Positions 21,017 to 33,524 of a stretch of DNA of 64,000 bases are shown here, in pieces. Source of the DNA: Selenomonas sp. AB3002 (lineage in GTDB: Bacteria > Bacillota > Negativicutes > Selenomonadales > Selenomonadaceae). The notes beneath the pieces were generated by a model. The model saw only the letters and a list, made by a program, of their open reading frames with translations, searched no databases and had not been told where the DNA came from. How positions within the stretch are numbered: the first letter of the stretch is position 1; every line of letters begins with the position of its first letter. Location: positions 1,178,001 through 1,242,000 of the forward strand of contig NZ_JNIO01000008.1 of assembly GCF_000702545.1 (NCBI RefSeq), read 5' to 3'. The position numbers were made by a program, and so were the translations under genes.

Positions 21017-22000
21017 TCATTTTGCGCTCAGGAAGTAGTAATAAGCATCTATCACATCCAAGAAAGCGCCGTCAAAGCCTGCTGCCATGATCTTATCCAG
21101 ATAGGAATCCCCGGAACCGTACAGCAGCTCCTTCCATTCCCTCCGCCAGTACTTGACCTTGAAATTGTTCTGCCAGTCCGGATTGGCTTCGTCCAGCCAG
21201 TCAGGCAGCTGCCTCTGCCACTCCTGCCGCCAATAATAACGGTATGTCTCTGCCTCACCTACACTCATATAGGCGTAGACCAGACGAGCTCCGCCGCCGT
21301 TCTTCTGCTTGAGGGAAGCGACCTCCTCTGCTGTCAGGGAGTCTTCCCCATAGAAAAGGTCAACGATCAGCAAATCGTAATCTGTTCCCCGCAGGGCTTC
21401 AAGATACGCCTCCCGGGAAGCAAATTTGCCCGGATTCAGGAGCACCAGATAATTCTTCACCTGATTGAGGCTTCTGATATCCTTATTATTTGCCCTGTGA
21501 GGAGCCTCCTCTGGCAGTTCATCCAAATCCCTGCGGAAAGAGGCCCAAGGGATATACCCCTTTTCTTTATTCAGTTGATAAGACTTCGCCGCCATATCTT
21601 CGGAATCCACATAGTCAAGACTCAAGACAGGCATTCCTGCCTGCAAAGCAGGGGCTAGTGCCTGATGAAAATACTTTGTGTCTTCTTGGGAAGTCTTTTC
21701 TGCCCTGCCCTTATCCACATCCCAGCGGAAATAAATGGACTCCGTCATGGTGCCGTCCAAAGCCTGCAGGAGGCGCCCCACATTCTCACCAGTGTTGCCG
21801 TCCATTTCCAGGAAAAGCCCCGCCCCGCCATTGCCCAGGAGACCAAAGCCAGGTTTTTTTTCCACAGCGTAAGCTTTCAAATCGCAAATAAGATCCACCA
21901 TGGAACCAGGATAATCTACTGTCGCCTCTTCTGCCGAAGAGCAGCCAAATATCCCCCCGCAAAACATCAAGCCCGCCAGAAAAGATCTGATTTTATTCAT
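21017..22000 (-). CDS. Lipoprotein glycoside hydrolase of the GH114-like (TM1410) group, pel-associated
   Basis: 327 residues from the ATG at 22000 (GAGG 6 nt upstream). It has a short lipoprotein signal with lipobox IFGC at residues 17-20. The body is a TIM-barrel of the endo-alpha-1,4-polygalactosaminidase-like group: PVLSLDYVD, YDLLIVDLFYGED, LVYAYMSVGEAETYRYYW and the hallmark GFDGAFLDVIDAYYYF near the C-terminus, with Asp residues in the expected catalytic places. Pel is rich in N-acetylgalactosamine, and proteobacterial PelA carries such a hydrolase fused to a deacetylase; here it is a separate gene 14 bp after the outer-membrane protein. It probably trims or releases the polymer outside the inner membrane. 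Confidence 0.82.
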   Translation of the reverse strand: MNKIRSFLAGLMFCGGIFGCSSAEEATVDYPGSMVDLICDLKAYAVEKKPGFGLLGNGGAGLFLEMDGNTGENVGRLLQALDGTMTESIYFRWDVDKGRAEKTSQEDTKYFHQALAPALQAGMPVLSLDYVDSEDMAAKSYQLNKEKGYIPWASFRRDLDELPEEAPHRANNKDIRSLNQVKNYLVLLNPGKFASREAYLEALRGTDYDLLIVDLFYGEDSLTAEEVASLKQKNGGGARLVYAYMSVGEAETYRYYWRQEWQRQLPDWLDEANPDWQNNFKVKYWRREWKELLYGSGDSYLDKIMAAGFDGAFLDVIDAYYYFLSAK

Positions 22001-22014
22001 AGCTAACCTCAATC

Positions 22015-24798
22015 TCAGAATGACTTTGTATACATCAGGGCCAGGCCCCAACCATTGAAATTATAGTTATTCTCTCCCTTATGATCATGGATGATATAGC
22101 GCTCAAGCCTGCACTCCAGCATATCAGTATCGCTGAACCTGTAATCATAAGACAAGGTCAGGGCTTTCCTGCTGGGATTGTACCAATAGCCGTTATCTAT
22201 AATCCCTGCTTTGGTTTCCAAGCTGTTAAAGAAAAGATTGCCATTAGCCCGTTGGTAGCTGAACATCAGGTGCAGGTTCTGCCTCTTATCGAACCTATGA
22301 GTCAGGCCGATCCCACCCTCATACCAGTTTATGGCCGTATCGCTGCCTGTCACATCACCAAAGTAATGTGTACGTCCCGTATGGCTATAGGCAGCATATA
22401 CATCCAAGGAGTCTTTTGGCGTAAAACTATGCGTATAAAAACCGCGAAGCCAGACATTTGCTCCTTCCCGATAGCTGACATTGTAGAACCACGGATCTAG
22501 TCTTACATATCTCATCTCCTGGGAAGATTTCCCATTGTATGTATAACCTGCACTGAGCTTATACTTGTCTTTCTCACCGGCATGGACATACTGCAACTGC
22601 GCCTGAACTTGATTGCCAGGGTGAACCTTTCCTTGCAAACCATATTCCAACTTGTTATGTCTCGCTATTACCTCCTTCAAAGCAGAAGTATTCGTGCCAT
22701 ATTCATCTAGCTTGGACAAAATCTCATCAAAAAACTCAGACGCATCGTGTTCACTTAAGCCCTGCTTTTGAAGTGCCGACAATGCGGATGTTTTATCATC
22801 ATTCAGGACATAGCTTTCCACAATATCCTGCAGATTGCTAATGCTCAGCCTCTTTTCAGTTGCAAGATTCTTAACTGATTCGCTGTAAATATTATATGGT
22901 CTTACTATTTCTACATAATCAGTTAAAACTTGTTTCATAACCTCCTTATAATTGCTACCCAATGTCTTTTGCAGGCAATCATCAGCTTCTGCCACACTAT
23001 AACCTTTTTTTTGCAAAAAATCTTCAACACTTTTGTCATCTGTCAGCAAGAGTTCTTCAGGTGATGAATTAAGCGCATCACTCAATTCAGCATATGCTTC
23101 CGGATACTGGCTGGTGAATAACCCCCATACATCATTTGTCTGGGACTCATATTCATAGCTGCCGCGAATCTTATAGGAAAGCCTGCCGATAAGGGTATCC
23201 TCCTTGCTGAAGTGTCTTACTACTTCTACTCCGGGGGTAAAGTTTACCCCTTCGCCAAAGGATGTGTACTTTGCCAACCCCTCCGGCAGTTGTGCGTTGA
23301 CATTGGTTTCCTGCCCCGTAGGCAGATCTATAACGAAGGTGTAATTCACGTCATATTTCTCATGCGGATTCTTGACCTTCGCCGTCAGGGTTGTATCCGT
23401 CATACCTGAGACACGACCGTGCTTCAAGCCAGAATTGGACATGACATATCCCGTAGACAGGCTATACTCAACATTCTTCTCTGCCCCGAAGAACTCCTGT
23501 CCAAATACGAACTGATGGCCTCTACCAGAATAACCTGACCAACTGTAAAAATCCAGGGAACTCTGCCAGGACTTGCCCTCACCGAAATGATCCAATTCGT
23601 ATTGAGTCTTGCGCAAATCCTTCTCTGCTTCGTCGTGATATTCCTCGGCCTCCAACAGTCCCTTCTCTGCCTCTTCCTGCCATTTCTCCGCCTCTGCCAC
23701 ATCCTGTTTGCTCTGAACAAGATCTGCTTCCACATCAGCCTGCTGCTCAGTAAGGTCCTTCACCAAATCACGTGCTTCTTCCTCCGCTGCTTCCGCCTGA
23801 TCCCGGGCAGCCTCCAGTTCGTCAAGGTAAGCATACATTTCATCCAGGAAGGCGTTCTCCTGCTCAAGAGCATTACTGATTTCTTCCAGACGGCTTTCAT
23901 AGGCAGAGTCATTGTTATCCGAAACGGGATCTTCCACATTCACGCCAGCCACCATGGCCTGGACTTCTGCAATGCGGTTCTGCTGCCAGTCCACACTTTC
24001 CCAGGCCTGCTCGATGCGGGCTGCCAGCTCGTCCACCTGTCCTGCAACGACCTCATAACGGGCAGCATATTCACCAGCAATGCGGTTCTCCTCAGCAGAC
24101 AGCTGCTGTACAGAAGCCTCCTGAGCAGAAATATCAGGCAGGTAGTCTGCTACTGCCTGCTGGCATGCCAACGCCAATTGAGTGCGCTGCTCACTTTCCA
24201 ACCTGGCCTCTTCCAAGGCAGACTTGATTTCCTCGAGATGCACCTTGGCGGCTTCCAGGTTCAATCTGGCCCGCATCAGCCCTTCATTTGCTTCCTCTCT
24301 GTTATTTTTGGCTTCAGCCAGGGCGCGCTCTGCCTCCAGCAGATTGTTCTGGGCATTTCTCAGGCTCCGCTCTGCCTCCCGATAATTGATAATCTCCTCT
24401 CTGGCATTGCGCAAAGCCTGGAACTCTGCAGGAACGTCATGCATGGTGGAAAGTGAGGAAGCCTCCCCCAGGCCAGATGCAGCAAAGAGCAGGCTCAGGG
24501 AGAATGCACCAGCAGCCGATGGCCTTTGGGCCTCCCGCTTCAGTCTGAGGCGCTTCCTGGTCATGCGGAAGTTCTCCAGCGGATCTGGTACAACCGCCAG
24601 CCTCCTTTCCTCCCGCAGTTTCCGCAGCCGCTTTCTCGACATGCGGAAAGAGACAGGCGGTTCCAGGACTATGGCGGCCCTTTGGCTTTCCCGCCTTTTT
24701 CTGAGCCTCTTCCTGCTCATGCGGAAAGAGGGTTCAGAGGGTTCTGCCGGCTCCCTGTCCTCTGCCAGCCTCCTGCGCTTTTTCCTGCTCATCCTCAT
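22015..24798 (-). CDS. Outer-membrane coiled-coil/beta-barrel protein, candidate Pel export porin
   Basis: 927 residues that I cannot place in a named family. Residues 1-92 hold four Arg-rich repeats (RMSRK or RMTRK at 2, 26, 52 and 78). A hydrophobic stretch (about 95-109) with a likely cleavage after GEA at 113 acts as signal peptide. Residues 120-405 form a long periplasmic coiled coil rich in Ala, Glu and Leu. From about 410 the sequence alternates aromatic and polar residues as in a beta-barrel and ends ALMYTKSF, with the C-terminal Phe of outer-membrane proteins. A helical, AT-rich insert interrupts the barrel at about 562-706. GGAGGT 8 nt upstream and a 4-nt overlap with pelG fix the start. 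Its place in the operon suggests it does the job of PelB. Confidence 0.75.
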   Translation of the reverse strand: MRMSRKKRRRLAEDREPAEPSEPSFRMSRKRLRKRRESQRAAIVLEPPVSFRMSRKRLRKLREERRLAVVPDPLENFRMTRKRLRLKREAQRPSAAGAFSLSLLFAASGLGEASSLSTMHDVPAEFQALRNAREEIINYREAERSLRNAQNNLLEAERALAEAKNNREEANEGLMRARLNLEAAKVHLEEIKSALEEARLESEQRTQLALACQQAVADYLPDISAQEASVQQLSAEENRIAGEYAARYEVVAGQVDELAARIEQAWESVDWQQNRIAEVQAMVAGVNVEDPVSDNNDSAYESRLEEISNALEQENAFLDEMYAYLDELEAARDQAEAAEEEARDLVKDLTEQQADVEADLVQSKQDVAEAEKWQEEAEKGLLEAEEYHDEAEKDLRKTQYELDHFGEGKSWQSSLDFYSWSGYSGRGHQFVFGQEFFGAEKNVEYSLSTGYVMSNSGLKHGRVSGMTDTTLTAKVKNPHEKYDVNYTFVIDLPTGQETNVNAQLPEGLAKYTSFGEGVNFTPGVEVVRHFSKEDTLIGRLSYKIRGSYEYESQTNDVWGLFTSQYPEAYAELSDALNSSPEELLLTDDKSVEDFLQKKGYSVAEADDCLQKTLGSNYKEVMKQVLTDYVEIVRPYNIYSESVKNLATEKRLSISNLQDIVESYVLNDDKTSALSALQKQGLSEHDASEFFDEILSKLDEYGTNTSALKEVIARHNKLEYGLQGKVHPGNQVQAQLQYVHAGEKDKYKLSAGYTYNGKSSQEMRYVRLDPWFYNVSYREGANVWLRGFYTHSFTPKDSLDVYAAYSHTGRTHYFGDVTGSDTAINWYEGGIGLTHRFDKRQNLHLMFSYQRANGNLFFNSLETKAGIIDNGYWYNPSRKALTLSYDYRFSDTDMLECRLERYIIHDHKGENNYNFNGWGLALMYTKSF

Positions 24799-26276
24799 TT
24801 CCGCTCACCTCCCAAAAGCTCCAACTCCACATACTTCTCACCGTACAGCCACAGGGCCAGTTTCGTAAGCGGCCCCTGCACCGGCTGGTAGAACATAGGC
24901 TGGGAGCAGAAGACAAAATAATTTATCCGCTGGCTGAAATGGCTCAGCCGCCAGAAGCCAAAAGCAAAGCTGAGAAGGCCTGCCAGGAAGAAAGTGAAAC
25001 CATAGCTGTCCGGCCCCAGGAACCACAAGCCCAAGAGGCCCAGCACAAGATTGCTCAGGCAGAAGCAGGCAGAAATCCTCAGCACATCTTTCTGATAGTC
25101 AAAATAAACCATAAGAATATAAATCAGCTGCAACAGCCCCGTAAAGAAGGCTCCGAAAAGTATCACGTTGTACATATTCACCTGGGCATAAGTGATGCCC
25201 GCATTGCTCAGTATATAATTTCCCAGCACCAGGAACACCAAAGTAGACACCAGCTGGAACTCCACGATATGGCGTATTTCGAACCACAGGGTATGCAGAA
25301 GGTCTTTCCTGGCATCGTCAATCTCCCGGAAATTGCCCCGCTTGGTGATATGAGTGAAATACACATTGTACCGCTCATAGAAAGCCGTTTCCACAGATAC
25401 CACGAACAGCATCATCAGGGGCAGCACGGAAATAAAAGCGAAGAAGGTCACCACATCATACACCGGCGCAAAGCGGAAGGTCCCGCCAGCCACGGTGCTC
25501 CATGGCCCCTGCCAGATGATGATATTGGGCAGGAAGATGCCCAGCATATAGCCAAAGGAAATGAGGAACAGACGCCAATGCCTCTCCAGATAAGGCAGGA
25601 AGGCGAAGTTCTGCCCCTCCGGGGACAGGCCGAAGTAGTCCACAATATGCAGCAGGAACAGCAGCACCACTAAAGTCATGCCCACATCCACCGCCAGCAG
25701 GCCGCACTGTTCAGCCGGCAGCAGCTGCCAATGAAGGAAGGCCCAGGAGAGGAAAATGGCTAGCAGTACCCCCGTCAGATAGCTCAGCAGCAAGCCCTTG
25801 AACTTCTTCACAGCCGACAGATAGACACTCTCTGCCCAGGCCAGCAGCAACAGGGCAAAAAACAGATACGACAGGCACTTGGTCACGAAATCCAAAGGCT
25901 TGTCCCAGAAAAAGGCCAGCGAAACTGCCGCCCCCAGCACCGTCAGGATGGAGCCCAGACCAAAGAAGGAGGCGGTCACATCCTCATAATGATGCACTGA
26001 CAGGCAGTCAGCCAGGTATCTAGTAAGCACCATGGTAAAGCCGCTGGACAGTACCTGGGAAAAGACAAAGGCATACACCACCGCCCCCACGAAAATCTGC
26101 CCGGCTTCCTCCCCTATTTCGTAATAAGAGAACAGCATCTGCACAGCCAGCACCATGCCCGTCATCAGGGCAAAAGGTCCAGCAGTGATGATGGCAGAAT
26201 ACGAATAAGCCTTTACATGGCCCGTCATGGTTCTCGCCTGGAAAAGTTTCCTGAGTTCAAAACCTACCCCTGCCAT
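24795..26276 (-). CDS. pelG: PelG, polytopic membrane protein of Pel polysaccharide transport
   Basis: 493 residues with about twelve membrane helices and the PelG N-terminal signature MAGVGFELRKLF, then SYSAIITAGPFALMTG. PelG is a MOP-superfamily-like protein that, with PelD, PelE and PelF, forms the inner-membrane synthase/transport complex. It overlaps pelF by 13 nt at its start and the outer-membrane protein gene by 4 nt at its end, so translation is coupled on both sides. Confidence 0.95.
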   Translation of the reverse strand: MAGVGFELRKLFQARTMTGHVKAYSYSAIITAGPFALMTGMVLAVQMLFSYYEIGEEAGQIFVGAVVYAFVFSQVLSSGFTMVLTRYLADCLSVHHYEDVTASFFGLGSILTVLGAAVSLAFFWDKPLDFVTKCLSYLFFALLLLAWAESVYLSAVKKFKGLLLSYLTGVLLAIFLSWAFLHWQLLPAEQCGLLAVDVGMTLVVLLFLLHIVDYFGLSPEGQNFAFLPYLERHWRLFLISFGYMLGIFLPNIIIWQGPWSTVAGGTFRFAPVYDVVTFFAFISVLPLMMLFVVSVETAFYERYNVYFTHITKRGNFREIDDARKDLLHTLWFEIRHIVEFQLVSTLVFLVLGNYILSNAGITYAQVNMYNVILFGAFFTGLLQLIYILMVYFDYQKDVLRISACFCLSNLVLGLLGLWFLGPDSYGFTFFLAGLLSFAFGFWRLSHFSQRINYFVFCSQPMFYQPVQGPLTKLALWLYGEKYVELELLGGERK

Positions 26277-27703
26277 CTTGCTCCTGCCTCCCCGGCTTCC
26301 TTGTAAATCTGCTTGTAACTCTCTATGAATATGTCATAAGTATACATCCTGCATACCCGCTCGTAGCCAATGCGGGCCATTTCCCTGCGCAGCGGGTAAT
26401 TCCTGGCCAGCCGCAGTATTTCCCGGGACATGTCTTCAAAATCCATGGGCGCCACCACGGCTCCCGCAGTGCCCAGCTTGTCATCGGAAGCGCCGTAGAT
26501 AAGCTCCCGGCAGCAGCCCACATCCGTAGTGACGAAAGGCCTATGGGCCGCCTGCCCCTCCAGCACCGCCAGGGGCTGCCCCTCGCTGATGCTGGACAGC
26601 ACCATCAGGTCCATCCTGGGAAGATACTCTGTCACCTGCACGGAGCCGGTGAAATGGACATCTTCCATCTGCAGCATTTCCACCGTCTGCATACACAGGT
26701 CATAGTACTCCGGGGATTCTTCCACATTGCCCATGACATAGAGTTCCGCATCCGTCATTTCCTGCTTGACCAGGAAGAAAGCCCTCAGCAGCGTCACCAC
26801 ATCCTTGATGGGCACCACCCGCACTACTGCCCCAATGCGGAAAGGCCCATCATGGTCCTCCACTTCTGGTATGTCCTTGAAGCGCTCTAGGCGTATGCCA
26901 TTAGGCACTACTCCAATCTTGGCCGGGTCGCAGCCCAGATCCATTTCCACCTCCGCATTATGCTCAAAGAGGGTGTAGACCCTGTGAGCAGAGGTGTAGG
27001 ACAGCTTGGCCAGATTGTAGAAATACTGGATCCAGACAGACTTGAAATCGCCCTTGGCCCAGTCGCTCTTGATGATTTCTGCCTCCCGCTCCCGGGAATA
27101 GATGCCATGCTCCGTGATCAGAAATGGCTTGTGGTAGACTTCCGAAGCCAGCGCCCCAATGACGCCGCAATAACCCGTAGCCACGCTGTGGTACACATCC
27201 GCCTCGGGCAGTTCCTGCTGCAGCAAATAGAAAAGGGGCAGCAGCATGGAGCGAAGCGTCCAGAAAAACTCCGTAAAGGGCAGATAGCTGTACTTTTCCT
27301 CGTACACTCTCTGAATCACATCGAAGAAATCGCTGGTCATGAAAATCCCCAGCATGCCATTGAAGCGCCTGCCCCCGCGGAAGATGGAGGCCAATTCCTT
27401 GATGTCGATAGGCTTCTGTCCCACCACCAGATCATATAGCACCCGGCATTCCTCAGGCGTGAGCACATTTTCTTCCATGCCGTGGGATTTGAGCCCCAGG
27501 ATTTCGTCCAGGAATTCCTCCTGTATGCCCACCACATTCGGGGGGAACTTGTACTTGAAGCAGCCCCTGTCTTTCTCCTCTGCACCAATGGAGTAGAGGA
27601 AGAACTCATGCTCCGGCATGCCCGCCATGAGCATTTGCACCCAGGAAGAAACGCCCCCCACCACATATGGGTAAGAACCTTCCACCAGCAGGCAGATTCT
27701 CAT
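26264..27703 (-). CDS. pelF: PelF, cytosolic glycosyltransferase of Pel synthesis
   Basis: 479 residues from the ATG at 27703, set by GGAGGA 6 nt upstream and by a TGATG overlap with the stop of pelA. The N-terminus RICLLVEGSYPYVVGGVSSW is the family hallmark; the GT4 C-terminal half has VVRVVPIKDV and ISEGQPLAVLEGQ, which contains the E-x7-E pair. PelF uses a UDP-sugar to polymerise Pel at the cytoplasmic face. Confidence 0.96.
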   Translation of the reverse strand: MRICLLVEGSYPYVVGGVSSWVQMLMAGMPEHEFFLYSIGAEEKDRGCFKYKFPPNVVGIQEEFLDEILGLKSHGMEENVLTPEECRVLYDLVVGQKPIDIKELASIFRGGRRFNGMLGIFMTSDFFDVIQRVYEEKYSYLPFTEFFWTLRSMLLPLFYLLQQELPEADVYHSVATGYCGVIGALASEVYHKPFLITEHGIYSREREAEIIKSDWAKGDFKSVWIQYFYNLAKLSYTSAHRVYTLFEHNAEVEMDLGCDPAKIGVVPNGIRLERFKDIPEVEDHDGPFRIGAVVRVVPIKDVVTLLRAFFLVKQEMTDAELYVMGNVEESPEYYDLCMQTVEMLQMEDVHFTGSVQVTEYLPRMDLMVLSSISEGQPLAVLEGQAAHRPFVTTDVGCCRELIYGASDDKLGTAGAVVAPMDFEDMSREILRLARNYPLRREMARIGYERVCRMYTYDIFIESYKQIYKEAGEAGARWQG

Positions 27704-29523
27704 CAAGGCTCCTCCTTCCAATAAATCACGGACTTGGGCTCTGAAGCCTCCACAAGATAAGCTTCGTCGCCAATCTTCGTGACCTCCGCCCCCTCAGCAT
27801 GATCCAGCACCTTGCCGCTGCGCAGTATGAAGCGCAGAGGCTGACGGAAATTCCAGCAGGTGAGAACCAGCTTCTCCTTTGACCGCTCCACCCGGTAGTC
27901 CATATCCAGATAATCATCAAAGGCCAGAGCCGCCTCGGAAGCTGTCATGGGCTTCAACCAGCTGTAGCGGGTGGTGATTTCGCCCATGTACTTCTTGAAC
28001 CCCTCAGCCATATCCGCCCAAGTAAGATGGGCGCTTTCCTCGTAATAAAGCTCATCCGGGTGGACAAAATGGGAAAAGCAGCCCATGTAGTTCATCATGC
28101 TGATATCCTCGTAGAGGGCCTGGCCGTTTGGGGAGTACCCCGCCGTGGTGCGGGGCATCTCATAGAGGCCGTTCTTTCGCTCGTAGTCCTGGATATAGGC
28201 CCTGGAAGCGTAGGGACCATCAAAGAGTGAGGAAAAGATATCCACCTCCGGGAAGGCCTCCCGGATGGCCTCCTTGCCCTCGGGGCTGAGGATATCCGAA
28301 GGGGGCACATAACAGCGGAAATGGTACTGTGGATAGGCTTCCGTGATATAGCGGCGCAGTTCCTTCATCGCCTCCAGCATATCTGCCTGACTTTCCCAGG
28401 GCACATAGTCCAGATCATCCAGCTGATAGCTCTCTGGCGCCAAAGATTGGTGGTTGTAGCCGTGTATGCCCAGTTCCCCCCCCATATCCAAAAGCTCCCT
28501 GCCGTAGATGATGAGGTTGTCCCGGGCAGTGCGCCCCGTCAGAGGCTTGAAGGGTCCCTTCACCTGGTCGCCATAAGACTCGATGATCAGCCCCGTGTAC
28601 TTCAGGCCGAACTCTTCAGCGCATTCCCGCATGTAGGGCCACCAGACATTGCGGTAGAACTCCGGCGTGCTGACCCCCAGTTCCTCATAAATGCGGTCAA
28701 AGTATCCCTCCGGCACAGGCGCAGGGAAATCGTCGATATAAAAGACCTTGTAGCCTAACACAGGATAGATAGTGTCCTCCCCGCAGTGGTTGATCAGGGA
28801 AATCAACAGGCCGATATTGGTCTTGTCATCCCGGACAATGCCGTCAAAGACATAGTATTTCCCCTGCCCCAGCTTTTTCTCCCACAACAGCGGCTCCCCT
28901 TCATAAGAAGCTATATGCACAGCGGCCTCCGGCTCCAGCTCCACCAGTGTGGTATTGCTGCTGTAGGCCGTATCCCCAAAGGCATAGCCCTTGCCCCCCA
29001 CCAGGAAATCCGTGGGCAGACTGATTCCCTTCACATCCCCCTCCCCCCGCAGAGCTTTGATGCCTATGGGGGCCAGATAGGCAGGAGTCAGGCCGCCGTC
29101 ATTAATGCTCTCAGGCCGCATCATGCACACAGCTGTGCCGCCCTTTTCCACATAGGACCTGATTTTGTCCCAGGATGCTACCTTATCAAGATACCCGGTG
29201 GCAATCAGCACACCGCGGTAAGAGGAGAAATCCTCCAAACTGCTGTCCTCAGCCAGAGCGTAATAATGATCCTTCTTCTCCTGATCCAGCAGCCACTCCA
29301 GACGGTGACGGGCAAAGACGCTGGACACATCGTGATTGTCGTAGATGATGAGATACCTGTCCCTGCTGCTCTCCTGCACCCCATCATTCTCCAGCTGGGG
29401 CAGCCGGGGCAGGATGTTGGTCTCACCGCCGAACTTCAGGAAGCCGTCCATCCTGATGAACTGAAAGAAGGCCGCCAGCAGGGACACCAGCACACATAGC
29501 AGTACAATATACCGCTTATCCAA
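27703..29523 (-). CDS. pelA: PelA-type polysaccharide deacetylase (DUF2194-like), membrane-anchored
   Basis: 606 residues. One N-terminal membrane helix (YIVLLCVLVSLLAAFF) anchors the protein outside the membrane. Residues 60-250 resemble a glutamine-amidotransferase-like Rossmann region. The deacetylase domain follows: FYIDDFPAPVP near 285 with the catalytic/metal Asp pair, GIHGYNHQSL near 370 with the metal His residues, and CYVPPSD. A C-terminal beta-domain closes the chain. It lacks the hydrolase domain of proteobacterial PelA, as in Gram-positive pel operons. It should remove acetyl groups from GalNAc. Overlaps pelE by 8 nt. Confidence 0.86.
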   Translation of the reverse strand: MDKRYIVLLCVLVSLLAAFFQFIRMDGFLKFGGETNILPRLPQLENDGVQESSRDRYLIIYDNHDVSSVFARHRLEWLLDQEKKDHYYALAEDSSLEDFSSYRGVLIATGYLDKVASWDKIRSYVEKGGTAVCMMRPESINDGGLTPAYLAPIGIKALRGEGDVKGISLPTDFLVGGKGYAFGDTAYSSNTTLVELEPEAAVHIASYEGEPLLWEKKLGQGKYYVFDGIVRDDKTNIGLLISLINHCGEDTIYPVLGYKVFYIDDFPAPVPEGYFDRIYEELGVSTPEFYRNVWWPYMRECAEEFGLKYTGLIIESYGDQVKGPFKPLTGRTARDNLIIYGRELLDMGGELGIHGYNHQSLAPESYQLDDLDYVPWESQADMLEAMKELRRYITEAYPQYHFRCYVPPSDILSPEGKEAIREAFPEVDIFSSLFDGPYASRAYIQDYERKNGLYEMPRTTAGYSPNGQALYEDISMMNYMGCFSHFVHPDELYYEESAHLTWADMAEGFKKYMGEITTRYSWLKPMTASEAALAFDDYLDMDYRVERSKEKLVLTCWNFRQPLRFILRSGKVLDHAEGAEVTKIGDEAYLVEASEPKSVIYWKEEP

Positions 29524-30421
29524 CTCTTGCCGCCCCCTTATCCCAGAATCGAATCACCCTCAGAGCCTCCGGAGAAAGCTCTATGGGCAGCGCCTTGAGT
29601 TTTTTCAGGCACTCCTGCAATTTGTCCGGCTTCTTCCAGGCCACGTAAAGAGAAATAAAGCTAAGATACGGTTCCTCTGCCCGAGGATGCCTGTCCAGGA
29701 AATCCTCACAGACCTGCTCAGCCCCGGGGTAGTCCGGCAGCTGCAGCAGCTGCTCCACTTCCTCCTGATAGTATTCCTTATTATCCGCCGCCAGCCTGGT
29801 AAGCCTGTCCAGAATGCCCACATATAGCTCCTGCTTCTTCCGCCAGGTCACATGGTCTATGAAATTCTTGTTGCCCATGTATTCCTTCAGCAGCCCAGCA
29901 TACTCCTGCAGCAGAGGCAGATCCTCCTGCTGCTCACCCTTCAGCACCTTGGTCTCACGGTCAAAAAGCTCTCCTTCCAGATTCTCCATGCGGGATGTGA
30001 GCATGGACACGGCATAGTAGGCAATCTCCCTGTCCTTGTCGTGCATGGCCATGCGCAGGATCTGCTGGTTCTCCACCAGGGACTGCTTGATGCTCTCCGT
30101 GAAGAAATGGCGCTTCTGCAGCTTGTCCTCCACCAGAAAGGCATCATTCAGGGGCACCACATCCTTTTGCACCGGCACCCCAATGAAGAAAGCTTCCCCC
30201 ATTTCCTCCTCCTCAGCCTCGTGGAGATCCCAGAGCCTCAGGATACTGCCTGCCAGCTTGAACAGGCAAAGTATGACCAGCCCCGCTACAGGCACACAAA
30301 GGACAATAACTGCCTCTGAAAAAGCTCTCAGCCTGGTCTTGCCCTTCAAGTCCAAAAGCAGGAAGAGCCCTGTTGCCAGCAAATGCGCCAGCAGGAATAT
30401 TTTCCAGTCCAGCCCCGTCAT
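29516..30421 (-). CDS. pelE: PelE-like membrane protein with TPR-like tail
   Basis: 301 residues from the ATG at 30421, which shares its A with the pelD stop codon (TGATG). Two membrane helices occupy residues 8-60 (IFLLAHLLATGLFLLLDL and VIVLCVPVAGLVILCLF). The rest is soluble and helical, ending in TPR-like repeats (DFLDRHPRAEEPYLSFISLY). PelE binds PelD through such a region and is needed for the synthase complex. Sequence identity is low, so the call rests on topology and position between pelD and pelA. Confidence 0.8.
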   Translation of the reverse strand: MTGLDWKIFLLAHLLATGLFLLLDLKGKTRLRAFSEAVIVLCVPVAGLVILCLFKLAGSILRLWDLHEAEEEEMGEAFFIGVPVQKDVVPLNDAFLVEDKLQKRHFFTESIKQSLVENQQILRMAMHDKDREIAYYAVSMLTSRMENLEGELFDRETKVLKGEQQEDLPLLQEYAGLLKEYMGNKNFIDHVTWRKKQELYVGILDRLTRLAADNKEYYQEEVEQLLQLPDYPGAEQVCEDFLDRHPRAEEPYLSFISLYVAWKKPDKLQECLKKLKALPIELSPEALRVIRFWDKGAARVG

Positions 30422-32460
30422 CAAAGCATCTTCTCCTCCCGCACTGCCGTGACACCTTCCCTGGCCAAACGCTCCATCACCATATTGCAGACCTTCTCAT
30501 CCGCATCAGGCAGCAGGATGTATATCCCCCCCTGATGCTCGCCTAAGAAGTCCTCGTTCCTGGTCACCTTGCCGCAAATGCTGTCCAATTCTTCGCAGCT
30601 GCGGCCTTCCCGGGAAACTTTCAAGATGCCAAGGGGCATTTCCCCCTGCAGCCTGCGGCGTTCCATAAGCTCCTGCAATATTTCCCTGAAAGCTTCCTCC
30701 CGCAGGATCCTGGTGCCACTGTAGTAGCGCTTATCCTGGGCCTCGGCTTCATACTGATAGGCTCTGCCCATGGAGGCAGAAATCAGCCGCATAGTGATGG
30801 AGAACAGGTTCTGATGATAGAGGCTCCACTTGTTGAAGTCCAGTCCAAAGAGCTCCACCACCCCGATAGCCTCCCCCTGATAGAGGATAGGGGCCGCCAG
30901 ATCTGGCGTATCCTTCACCAGTTCCCGATTGACGTAGACATTTTTCTCCGCAATCAGGTTCTTCAGATAATCATGCTCTTCCACTCTCAGCGACCTCGGC
31001 TGCTGAAAGGCAAGGCGCCCCTTCCTCACCTTCTGCCTCAGGTAGTATCCATCTTTGCTGAGGACATAGACGGCAATATCTTCAACCCCCATGACCTGGG
31101 TGGTAACTCCGGCGGCCTGGGTGAAAAGATTCTCTGTTGCTACACTGTCCAGGGAACGGATGATCCTGTACAAGCGGCCTATGCTGTCATCGGAATTCAC
31201 AATCTGGCGATAAAGCCTGTCCTTCACCACTACGCACTCATCGTAAAGAGAGCGCAGGAAATCATAGCGCTCCCGGGCCTGCTCCGCATGCCACTCATTG
31301 CTCTGCCTCTCAAAAGCCCTGGCATCGGCAAAGTAGCCGGTAACGACCGCCACGAAAAGATAGGCCACAAAGTGCAGCAGATGCTCAGGCATATACATGA
31401 GCGCCACTGCATTTGCTCCTGCCCTGAGAAGCACGCCCAAAAGTATGACAGAAGAAAACACCATGGCAATCAGGGACTGGCCTTTGCCGTAGAGTATGCC
31501 CATAGCTCCGATATAGGCAAAATTCAGGTCAAAGTAGACGGCAGGATTGACAGTAGTGCCGCCTTGGAAATAGGCAACGATGACCATCAGCAGGGCACCG
31601 GCAAGATTTTCCGCATAGGGAACTAATTTTTCCTTCCATCCCCGCAGCTGATTGATGCGCCTGTCCCGACGGGCTGACCTTTGCCACGACTCGCCCTCAT
31701 CCTGCAGTGCCTCATAGGCCATGGCCAGTCCGTCCTTCAGGCTGTACCTGGGACTCCAGCCGATTTCTGCCCGCACCAGGCTGCTGTCTGGCAGCCTGCC
31801 TCCGAAGGAAGCCTCACTTACAGACAAGCTTAAGGGCTTTCCCGTCACCTCTCCGATGGTTCTGGCCAGTTCTTTGGCGCTGACGGGCTGGCCGGTGACG
31901 ATATCCAGCGACTCCCCTGCAAAATCACGGGCGATGGTCCTGAAGATGGCATAAGCCCCATCATCCGCATAGAGGAACTCCCTCTTCTCCTCTGTTTCCA
32001 TGAAGCCCGTACGGCTCTCTCCCCGCTGGGATGCTTCCAGCCAGTCAGCTGCCAGCCCGTCCTCCGGCGCAGCTCCCGGACCATAGACTTCCGGCAGGCG
32101 CAGGAAGGAAACCGTCATCTCGCCCCCCCGCCAGGCGGAAGCGATCTTCTCTGACAGCTCCAACCGTGCCTCAGGCATTTCCAGGGATTCAAGCAGGTAA
32201 AACCGCCTCACACCATGCTCACGGCACATGGCCAGTATTTCATTCAATTCAGGCGCCCAGGACTTTGGCTCCGCCTGACTGTCCAGCACATAAAGCACCA
32301 CAGGCACATTATGGATGCGGAAGACTTCCTCCGGAGCTGGGAAATCCTTTGTCAGGACGTAAAAATCCCAGCCCTCCTTGGCAAAGAGCCGCTGCAGGGT
32401 ATCCTGCCAGAAAACCTGCCTGCCCGTCAGCAGCACCTTTTCATTCAGCTTGCCTGCCAC
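30421..32460 (-). CDS. pelD: PelD, c-di-GMP receptor with N-terminal SDR-like domain
   Basis: 679 residues. Residues 1-265 look like an epimerase/SDR domain (VSFLRLPEVYGPG, EFLYADDGAYAIF) whose Gly-rich NAD loop and Tyr-x3-Lys pair are lost. About four membrane helices follow (285-395), then a GAF domain (about 430-575) and a GGDEF-like domain. RNED at 634-637 is the RxxD inhibitory site that binds c-di-GMP, while the catalytic GGDEF position (643-647) reads QGGIY, so it should sense and not make c-di-GMP. GTG start at 32460, 23 bp after holA. Confidence 0.92.
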   Translation of the reverse strand: MAGKLNEKVLLTGRQVFWQDTLQRLFAKEGWDFYVLTKDFPAPEEVFRIHNVPVVLYVLDSQAEPKSWAPELNEILAMCREHGVRRFYLLESLEMPEARLELSEKIASAWRGGEMTVSFLRLPEVYGPGAAPEDGLAADWLEASQRGESRTGFMETEEKREFLYADDGAYAIFRTIARDFAGESLDIVTGQPVSAKELARTIGEVTGKPLSLSVSEASFGGRLPDSSLVRAEIGWSPRYSLKDGLAMAYEALQDEGESWQRSARRDRRINQLRGWKEKLVPYAENLAGALLMVIVAYFQGGTTVNPAVYFDLNFAYIGAMGILYGKGQSLIAMVFSSVILLGVLLRAGANAVALMYMPEHLLHFVAYLFVAVVTGYFADARAFERQSNEWHAEQARERYDFLRSLYDECVVVKDRLYRQIVNSDDSIGRLYRIIRSLDSVATENLFTQAAGVTTQVMGVEDIAVYVLSKDGYYLRQKVRKGRLAFQQPRSLRVEEHDYLKNLIAEKNVYVNRELVKDTPDLAAPILYQGEAIGVVELFGLDFNKWSLYHQNLFSITMRLISASMGRAYQYEAEAQDKRYYSGTRILREEAFREILQELMERRRLQGEMPLGILKVSREGRSCEELDSICGKVTRNEDFLGEHQGGIYILLPDADEKVCNMVMERLAREGVTAVREEKML

Positions 32461-32483: not shown

Positions 32484-33524
32484 TCAAGACCTCTGCCTTT
32501 GGCAGAGGAGAATAATGGCGTGTTCCAAAACTTCCTCTCCGGCCTGCCCCGTCTTGAGCTTGTAATCCGCATCAATAAGCTCCAGCATGGCAGCCTTCAA
32601 TACCTTTTCCGGGAACTTCTCTGCCGCCTGCCCCAGCTTTTCAGCAATATAGGGATTCAGCTCCAGAGGACCAGCCAGCGCCTTGCCCCTTATTCCCTGT
32701 GCCATCAGCTCCCTGGCCTGCCACAGCTGCCTCACATGGCGGGTAAGCAGAGCCAATATGACCGTGAAATATGTGCCCTCCAGCAGCTGCCGCTTCAAGA
32801 GTGACAACGCCTTGCCTGCCTGACGGCTGCTCACTGCATCCAGCAGGGCGAAATTGGAAATCTCCGGCAGGGAGGCAAAGACCTGCTTCAAATCAGCCAG
32901 GGCAATGCGCCGCTCCTGAGTATACATGGAAAGTTTGTCAAACTCCTGATCCAGGAATTCCAGGGAGATAGGCTGCATGAGGCTCACTGCCCCGTGGAAG
33001 TAAGCGGCAGCCTCCGGAGCAAGCTCCTTCTTTATCTCATGGAGCTTGCCCCGCAGCCATTCGTCAATATTCCAGGCCCGCACAGGCTCTGCCTCCAGCA
33101 CCAGCCCATATTTTTCTGCCAGCTTGCAGATTTTCTTCCGCTTGTCTGCCTTTTCCCGGGAAGTAAAAATCACATAGCTATAGGGAGGCATATCCGCAAA
33201 GAGAGCCATAAGCTTTTCCAGCTGCTTTTCTCTTTCCTTGCTACCCTCTGCCTTGACGGCCCTGAAAAGGGCTGTATCCTGCACCCAGATGACGTTCTTA
33301 TCCGCAAAAAAAGGCGCTGTCTCAATATTGCCCATAAGCACATCAAGGCCTGTATCTCCGGATAGTTTCTGCACAGCTTCGGCAGAATCCTCCTTGTCCA
33401 CCCCCAGCCGCCGCAAAATGGCCCGGCAGGCTCTGTCCACATAGTACCTTTCTTCACCTGCCAGCAGAAAAATATGAGGCAGCTCTGCCCCCTGCAGCCT
33501 GCCCATGAAGTCCACATATTTCAT
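32484..33524 (-). CDS. holA: DNA polymerase III subunit delta
   Basis: 346 residues, the normal size of HolA. It begins with FLLAGEERYYVDRACRAIL, the degenerate AAA+ start of the clamp-loader delta subunit, and has the helical C-terminal domain (FALLDAVSSRQAGKALSLLKRQL). Delta opens the beta clamp for loading at primers. It overlaps tcdA by 4 nt and precedes pelD by only 23 bp with no terminator, so pel may be transcribed from a promoter upstream of tcdA-holA. Confidence 0.95.
   Translation of the reverse strand: MKYVDFMGRLQGAELPHIFLLAGEERYYVDRACRAILRRLGVDKEDSAEAVQKLSGDTGLDVLMGNIETAPFFADKNVIWVQDTALFRAVKAEGSKEREKQLEKLMALFADMPPYSYVIFTSREKADKRKKICKLAEKYGLVLEAEPVRAWNIDEWLRGKLHEIKKELAPEAAAYFHGAVSLMQPISLEFLDQEFDKLSMYTQERRIALADLKQVFASLPEISNFALLDAVSSRQAGKALSLLKRQLLEGTYFTVILALLTRHVRQLWQARELMAQGIRGKALAGPLELNPYIAEKLGQAAEKFPEKVLKAAMLELIDADYKLKTGQAGEEVLEHAIILLCQRQRS

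Follow-up and report, generated by a model that had tools for sequence, protein, structure and literature searches.

How a polysaccharide made by a pel operon of Gram-positive type could leave a bacterium with two membranes is the question raised by this locus. In the Pel systems described, proteobacteria have an outer-membrane complex of PelB and PelC, and monoderms lack any outer-membrane component. The window, a stretch of 64,000 nucleotides from Selenomonas sp. AB3002, carries such an operon, and a sequence-only reading had proposed for it a third architecture, in which a monoderm-type synthase is joined to a separate export porin in a two-membrane Firmicute. Our analysis makes it quite probable that the locus is a Pel-type operon of a diderm Firmicute, in which a 927-residue protein is the putative outer-membrane exporter and belongs to a family shared with other synthase operons.

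Gene content of the operon

Seven contiguous genes occupy the minus strand from 32460 to 21017 with touching or overlapping ends, in the order PelD, PelE, PelA (deacetylase only), PelF, PelG, the 927-residue protein, and a GH114/PelA-hydrolase-like protein. The order pelD-pelE-pelA(deacetylase)-pelF-pelG with such ends, as proposed previously, was borne out. All of these genes were backed by Pfam or NCBIfam matches and motif checks except PelE (29516..30424, minus strand), which had no Pfam match and was assigned by its position, kept at the same place of the locus in relatives, and by its conservation there. The closest named relatives were Selenomonas metagenome-assembled genomes, two of which are labelled S. 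ruminantium. The holA gene (DNA polymerase III delta; 32484-33524, minus strand) lies immediately upstream of pelD, as it also does in several relatives (L053-L058, L065, and L105).

The PelD-like c-di-GMP receptor (30421..32460, minus strand) consists of a degenerate SDR/epimerase N-terminus (Pfam Epimerase, 1.6e-6), a weakly matching GAF-like part, and, at its end, a degenerate GGDEF in which the inhibitory RxxD c-di-GMP I-site, here RNED, is retained. This RxxD was present in every aligned relative except one frameshifted copy. The glycine-rich SDR motif is degenerate here and intact in three other relatives; PelD of streptococci and clostridia has likewise been described with a degenerate epimerase-like N-terminus (PMC7112168). 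PF16963 (PelD_GGDEF) gave no match in the genome, and the same model was also silent on its positive control.

The deacetylase PelA_DA (27703..29523, minus strand) has DUF2194 as its only domain (PF09960, E 4.3e-121), and its DD and HxxxH metal motifs were conserved in 21 sequences. PelF (26264..27721, minus strand) is a GT4 glycosyltransferase with an EX7E motif (NCBIfam NF038011, E 1.6e-110), and the inner-membrane exporter PelG (24795..26276, minus strand; PF16933, E 6.6e-123) is present in a single copy in the genome. The ligand and catalytic motifs of PelD, the deacetylase, and PelF are all intact.

The last gene (21017..22000, minus strand), whose corrected start is probably the ATG at 22000, encodes a predicted secreted GH114/PelA-hydrolase-like protein, which matched PF03537 with 9.4e-15 and TIGR01370 with 8.7e-42, the latter below that model's cut-off. 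Hydrolase and deacetylase are two separate genes and are not fused as in proteobacterial PelA. The protein had been described as a lipoprotein glycoside hydrolase; the GH114 family assignment stood, but the lipobox (IFGC) is weak and is absent from close relatives, whose signal peptides are of the ordinary kind, so that on sequence grounds the lipoprotein label is neither reliable nor conserved.

The earlier statement that no TPR-type pelB is present agreed with our searches: the PelB barrel model PF24604 had no match in the genome, while it matched in a Paraburkholderia record used as the positive control, and no TPR match was obtained. A PelC search of the genome gave a best match of E 0.17, which is a weak test of absence because PelC is divergent; within the contiguous operon there was no PelC-like gene.

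Predicted structure of the 927-residue protein

The gene directly after pelG (22015..24798, minus strand) encodes the outer-membrane exporter candidate, which had been read as a coiled-coil/beta-barrel protein. The predictions were consistent with this reading. Basic N-terminal repeats are followed by a signal peptide, an acidic coiled coil of about 290 residues, and a predicted 16-stranded barrel interrupted by a helical insert of about 170 residues, which the closest relatives lack; the last residue of the protein is F. Different long barrel inserts were seen in other homologues (L065 6076-9657; L102 10684-13533). The basic repeat region (24457..24798, minus strand) is a stretch of 114 residues preceding the signal peptide, with four RM(S/T)RK motifs and a net charge of +21; the number of repeats varies from 0 to 4 among relatives.

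In an AlphaFold model of residues 115-927, which had a moderate pLDDT of 65, two helices, one of about 161 residues and one of about 109, precede the barrel. For the barrel alone, modelled with a close relative without the helical insert, a manual count on the DSSP line gave 16 strands, with a pLDDT of 79 and a pTM of 0.73. The alignments behind these structures were shallow, the single-protein search having given five close Selenomonas/Veillonellaceae loci. When the predicted barrel was used in Foldseek, PelB (PelBC, 9h80) was found first and BcsC (6tzk) second, and the TM-score to PelB was a modest 0.47. Many 16-stranded barrels ranked equal with polysaccharide exporters in VIA-align, so that an exporter of polysaccharide cannot be told from other such barrels by this fold. 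The family matched PF13557 (Phenol_MetA_deg) weakly in 2 of 18 members (best E 2.5e-4), and no TPR was matched by Pfam in the protein or its family, two long helices being predicted instead. The median net charge per residue of the coil was -0.111 in pel-linked members versus -0.079 in other members (p 0.002, not corrected for phylogeny); an acidic coil would fit a cationic polymer, which is only suggestive.

Linkage of the porin to pel and to other synthases

Among 380 Negativicutes genomes, PelG was above the family cut-off in 59, and the 927-residue family was strongly present in 67. Both were found in 58 of the 59 PelG-bearing genomes, and in 55 of these 58 the porin gene came next after pelG, in the same orientation and no more than 1 kb away. 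Fisher's test of the co-occurrence gave a p of about 1e-57, a value that overstates independence because the genomes are related. In the one PelG-bearing genome without the porin (G270), the contig stops 55 bases after pelG. In two of the three non-adjacent cases the genes were on different contigs (G007 and G032), and in the third (G017) they were 5.5 kb apart owing to two PelA_DA-like genes, one of them split, and a GH114 gene between them (L062 4678-8499). In a further genome, G018, the pel genes were broken and frameshifted at two places (L063 and L064), suggesting that they are decaying. No proper porin homologue was found in seven PelG-bearing Bacillota genomes outside Negativicutes, which are presumed to be monoderm from that placement. 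Six of their neighbourhoods, two shortened by contig ends, had no porin after pelG, and some of them carry other accessory genes there.

The porin family was also present in genomes without pel, or at a second locus, inside other polysaccharide synthase operons. Homologues were found in acetylated-cellulose-type operons of BcsA-PilZ/MBOAT/AlgX (L074 6830-8701, a second copy in G046; L092 2009-3910, with a GH5 cellulase in addition), in a GGDEF/DUF2334/GT2/BcsB operon (L095, which L094 resembles by layout), and in GT2/deacetylase operons (L089 and L090, which L091 resembles by layout). Two genomes (L076 and L077) had a family member with neither PelG nor an obvious synthase nearby. In the tree, several pel-linked porins belonging to other Negativicutes families clustered with those away from pelG. 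That the porin exports polysaccharide is argued for most strongly by the occurrence of its family beside several types of synthase, and as its relatives adjoin unrelated synthases, it is probably the diderm Firmicutes' own export route for such sugars. The proposal of a third architecture was supported by the linkage and by the lack of a PelB barrel match, but has to be amended in that the porin, although it travels with pel and was not found mostly away from it in Negativicutes, is not specific to pel.

PelG and the porin share a single open frame of 1135 residues in G046 (L073 8171-11575), and the sequence where they meet resembles an internal signal peptide. The product may be cut in two, or may itself form a physical link between the membranes. 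We give about an even chance to the wider proposal that a single, interchangeable Negativicutes exporter family, built of a hairpin and a 16-stranded barrel, serves Pel, acetylated cellulose, and at least two GT2 systems, with the hairpin extending through the periplasm as far as the inner-membrane exporter, as the in-frame fusion in this lineage suggests.

The best reading is that the porin belongs to a family of outer-membrane exporters in Negativicutes that serves synthase-dependent polysaccharides and takes the place of PelB/PelC. We infer the following route. PelF would polymerise GalNAc under the control of PelD and c-di-GMP, and the chain would cross the inner membrane via PelD, PelE, and PelG. 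PelA_DA would then partly deacetylate it to a cationic polymer, partially deacetylated alpha-1,4-GalNAc being the product expected of a Gram-positive-type pel operon. The acidic coiled-coil hairpin would act as the periplasmic guide, in the role of the TPR superhelix of PelB and the PelC ring, and the 16-stranded barrel as the outer-membrane pore for Pel, and the GH114 enzyme would trim or release the polymer.

Alternatively, the 927-residue protein may be an OmpM-like anchor or tether that keeps Pel or the outer membrane in place, with Pel leaving by another pore. OmpM of Veillonella also combines a coiled-coil stalk with a 16-stranded barrel and belongs to diderm Firmicutes (PMC10628300). 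However, no SLH domain was among the Pfam matches listed for the protein and its family, the porin is sited in pel and other polysaccharide synthase operons, and the genome has no PelB barrel homologue; we consider an anchor unlikely. The barrel might also take up or retain pieces of Pel produced by the GH114 enzyme, as a recycling or anchoring channel, since the GH114 gene immediately follows that of the porin. This function is very doubtful, because the GH114 gene varies in its position at the locus (upstream in L072, L073, and L075; divergent in L065 and L105), unlike the porin, which is almost always right after pelG, and because some porin homologues stand beside synthases without GH114 nearby. 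Export by a divergent PelB/PelC encoded elsewhere in the genome, with an incidental porin, is scarcely credible: PelC homologues are hard to detect, but PF24604 was silent here and positive in Paraburkholderia, the best PelC match had an E of only 0.17, and the porin-pel linkage is near-universal.

Comparison with known export systems

With the porin as the exporter, the pel operon of diderm Firmicutes would be a third solution for Pel export, using an exporter family with a coiled coil in place of the TPR scaffold. A description of the 927-residue porin was not found in the literature searched, the coverage of which was partial. The system is of interest for biofilm formation by Selenomonas of the mouth and the rumen: PelF and PelG are present in strains of S. 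sputigena, the type strain of which forms biofilms, whereas S. lamontii has neither PelF/PelG nor a biofilm, which is a correlation only (PMC13339959).

Two Fusobacteriaceae records (Cetobacterium and Fusobacterium) also had a Gram-positive-type pel set. Their PelG, of 703-772 residues, is extended at the C-terminus by a segment that contains an internal lipobox and GYN/GYD-type repeats, and the next gene encodes a small barrel-like protein of about 305-316 residues (L080 12001-15016; L081 12001-15267). No homology between the Fusobacterium barrel and the porin barrel was detected by hhalign (2 versus 5 sequences); accordingly, an outer-membrane partner may have been recruited to the monoderm-type pel set more than once.

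Barrels matching PF13557 share only a weak profile match with the porin, which adds a coiled coil and a polysaccharide context. BcsC, PgaA, and AlgE, the outer-membrane barrels of synthase-dependent systems, were among the Foldseek matches, and the 16 predicted strands equal the number in PelB, BcsC, and PgaA. In contrast to these barrels, with which it has no detectable sequence kinship, one Negativicutes family pairs with several synthase types. The Gram-positive pelDEADAFG operons of Bacillus cereus, streptococci, and clostridia (PMC7112168) have the same gene order, a deacetylase-only PelA, and a separate PelA-hydrolase-like gene, whereas the coiled-coil/barrel protein directly after pelG is added here. 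The Pseudomonas PelB-PelC complex (PMC12141448) consists of a 16-stranded barrel and a periplasmic helical part, as predicted here, but the porin has a coiled-coil hairpin in place of TPR, with no PF24604 match and no PelC found; comparing the two systems offers a way to test what TPR and PelC contribute to export.
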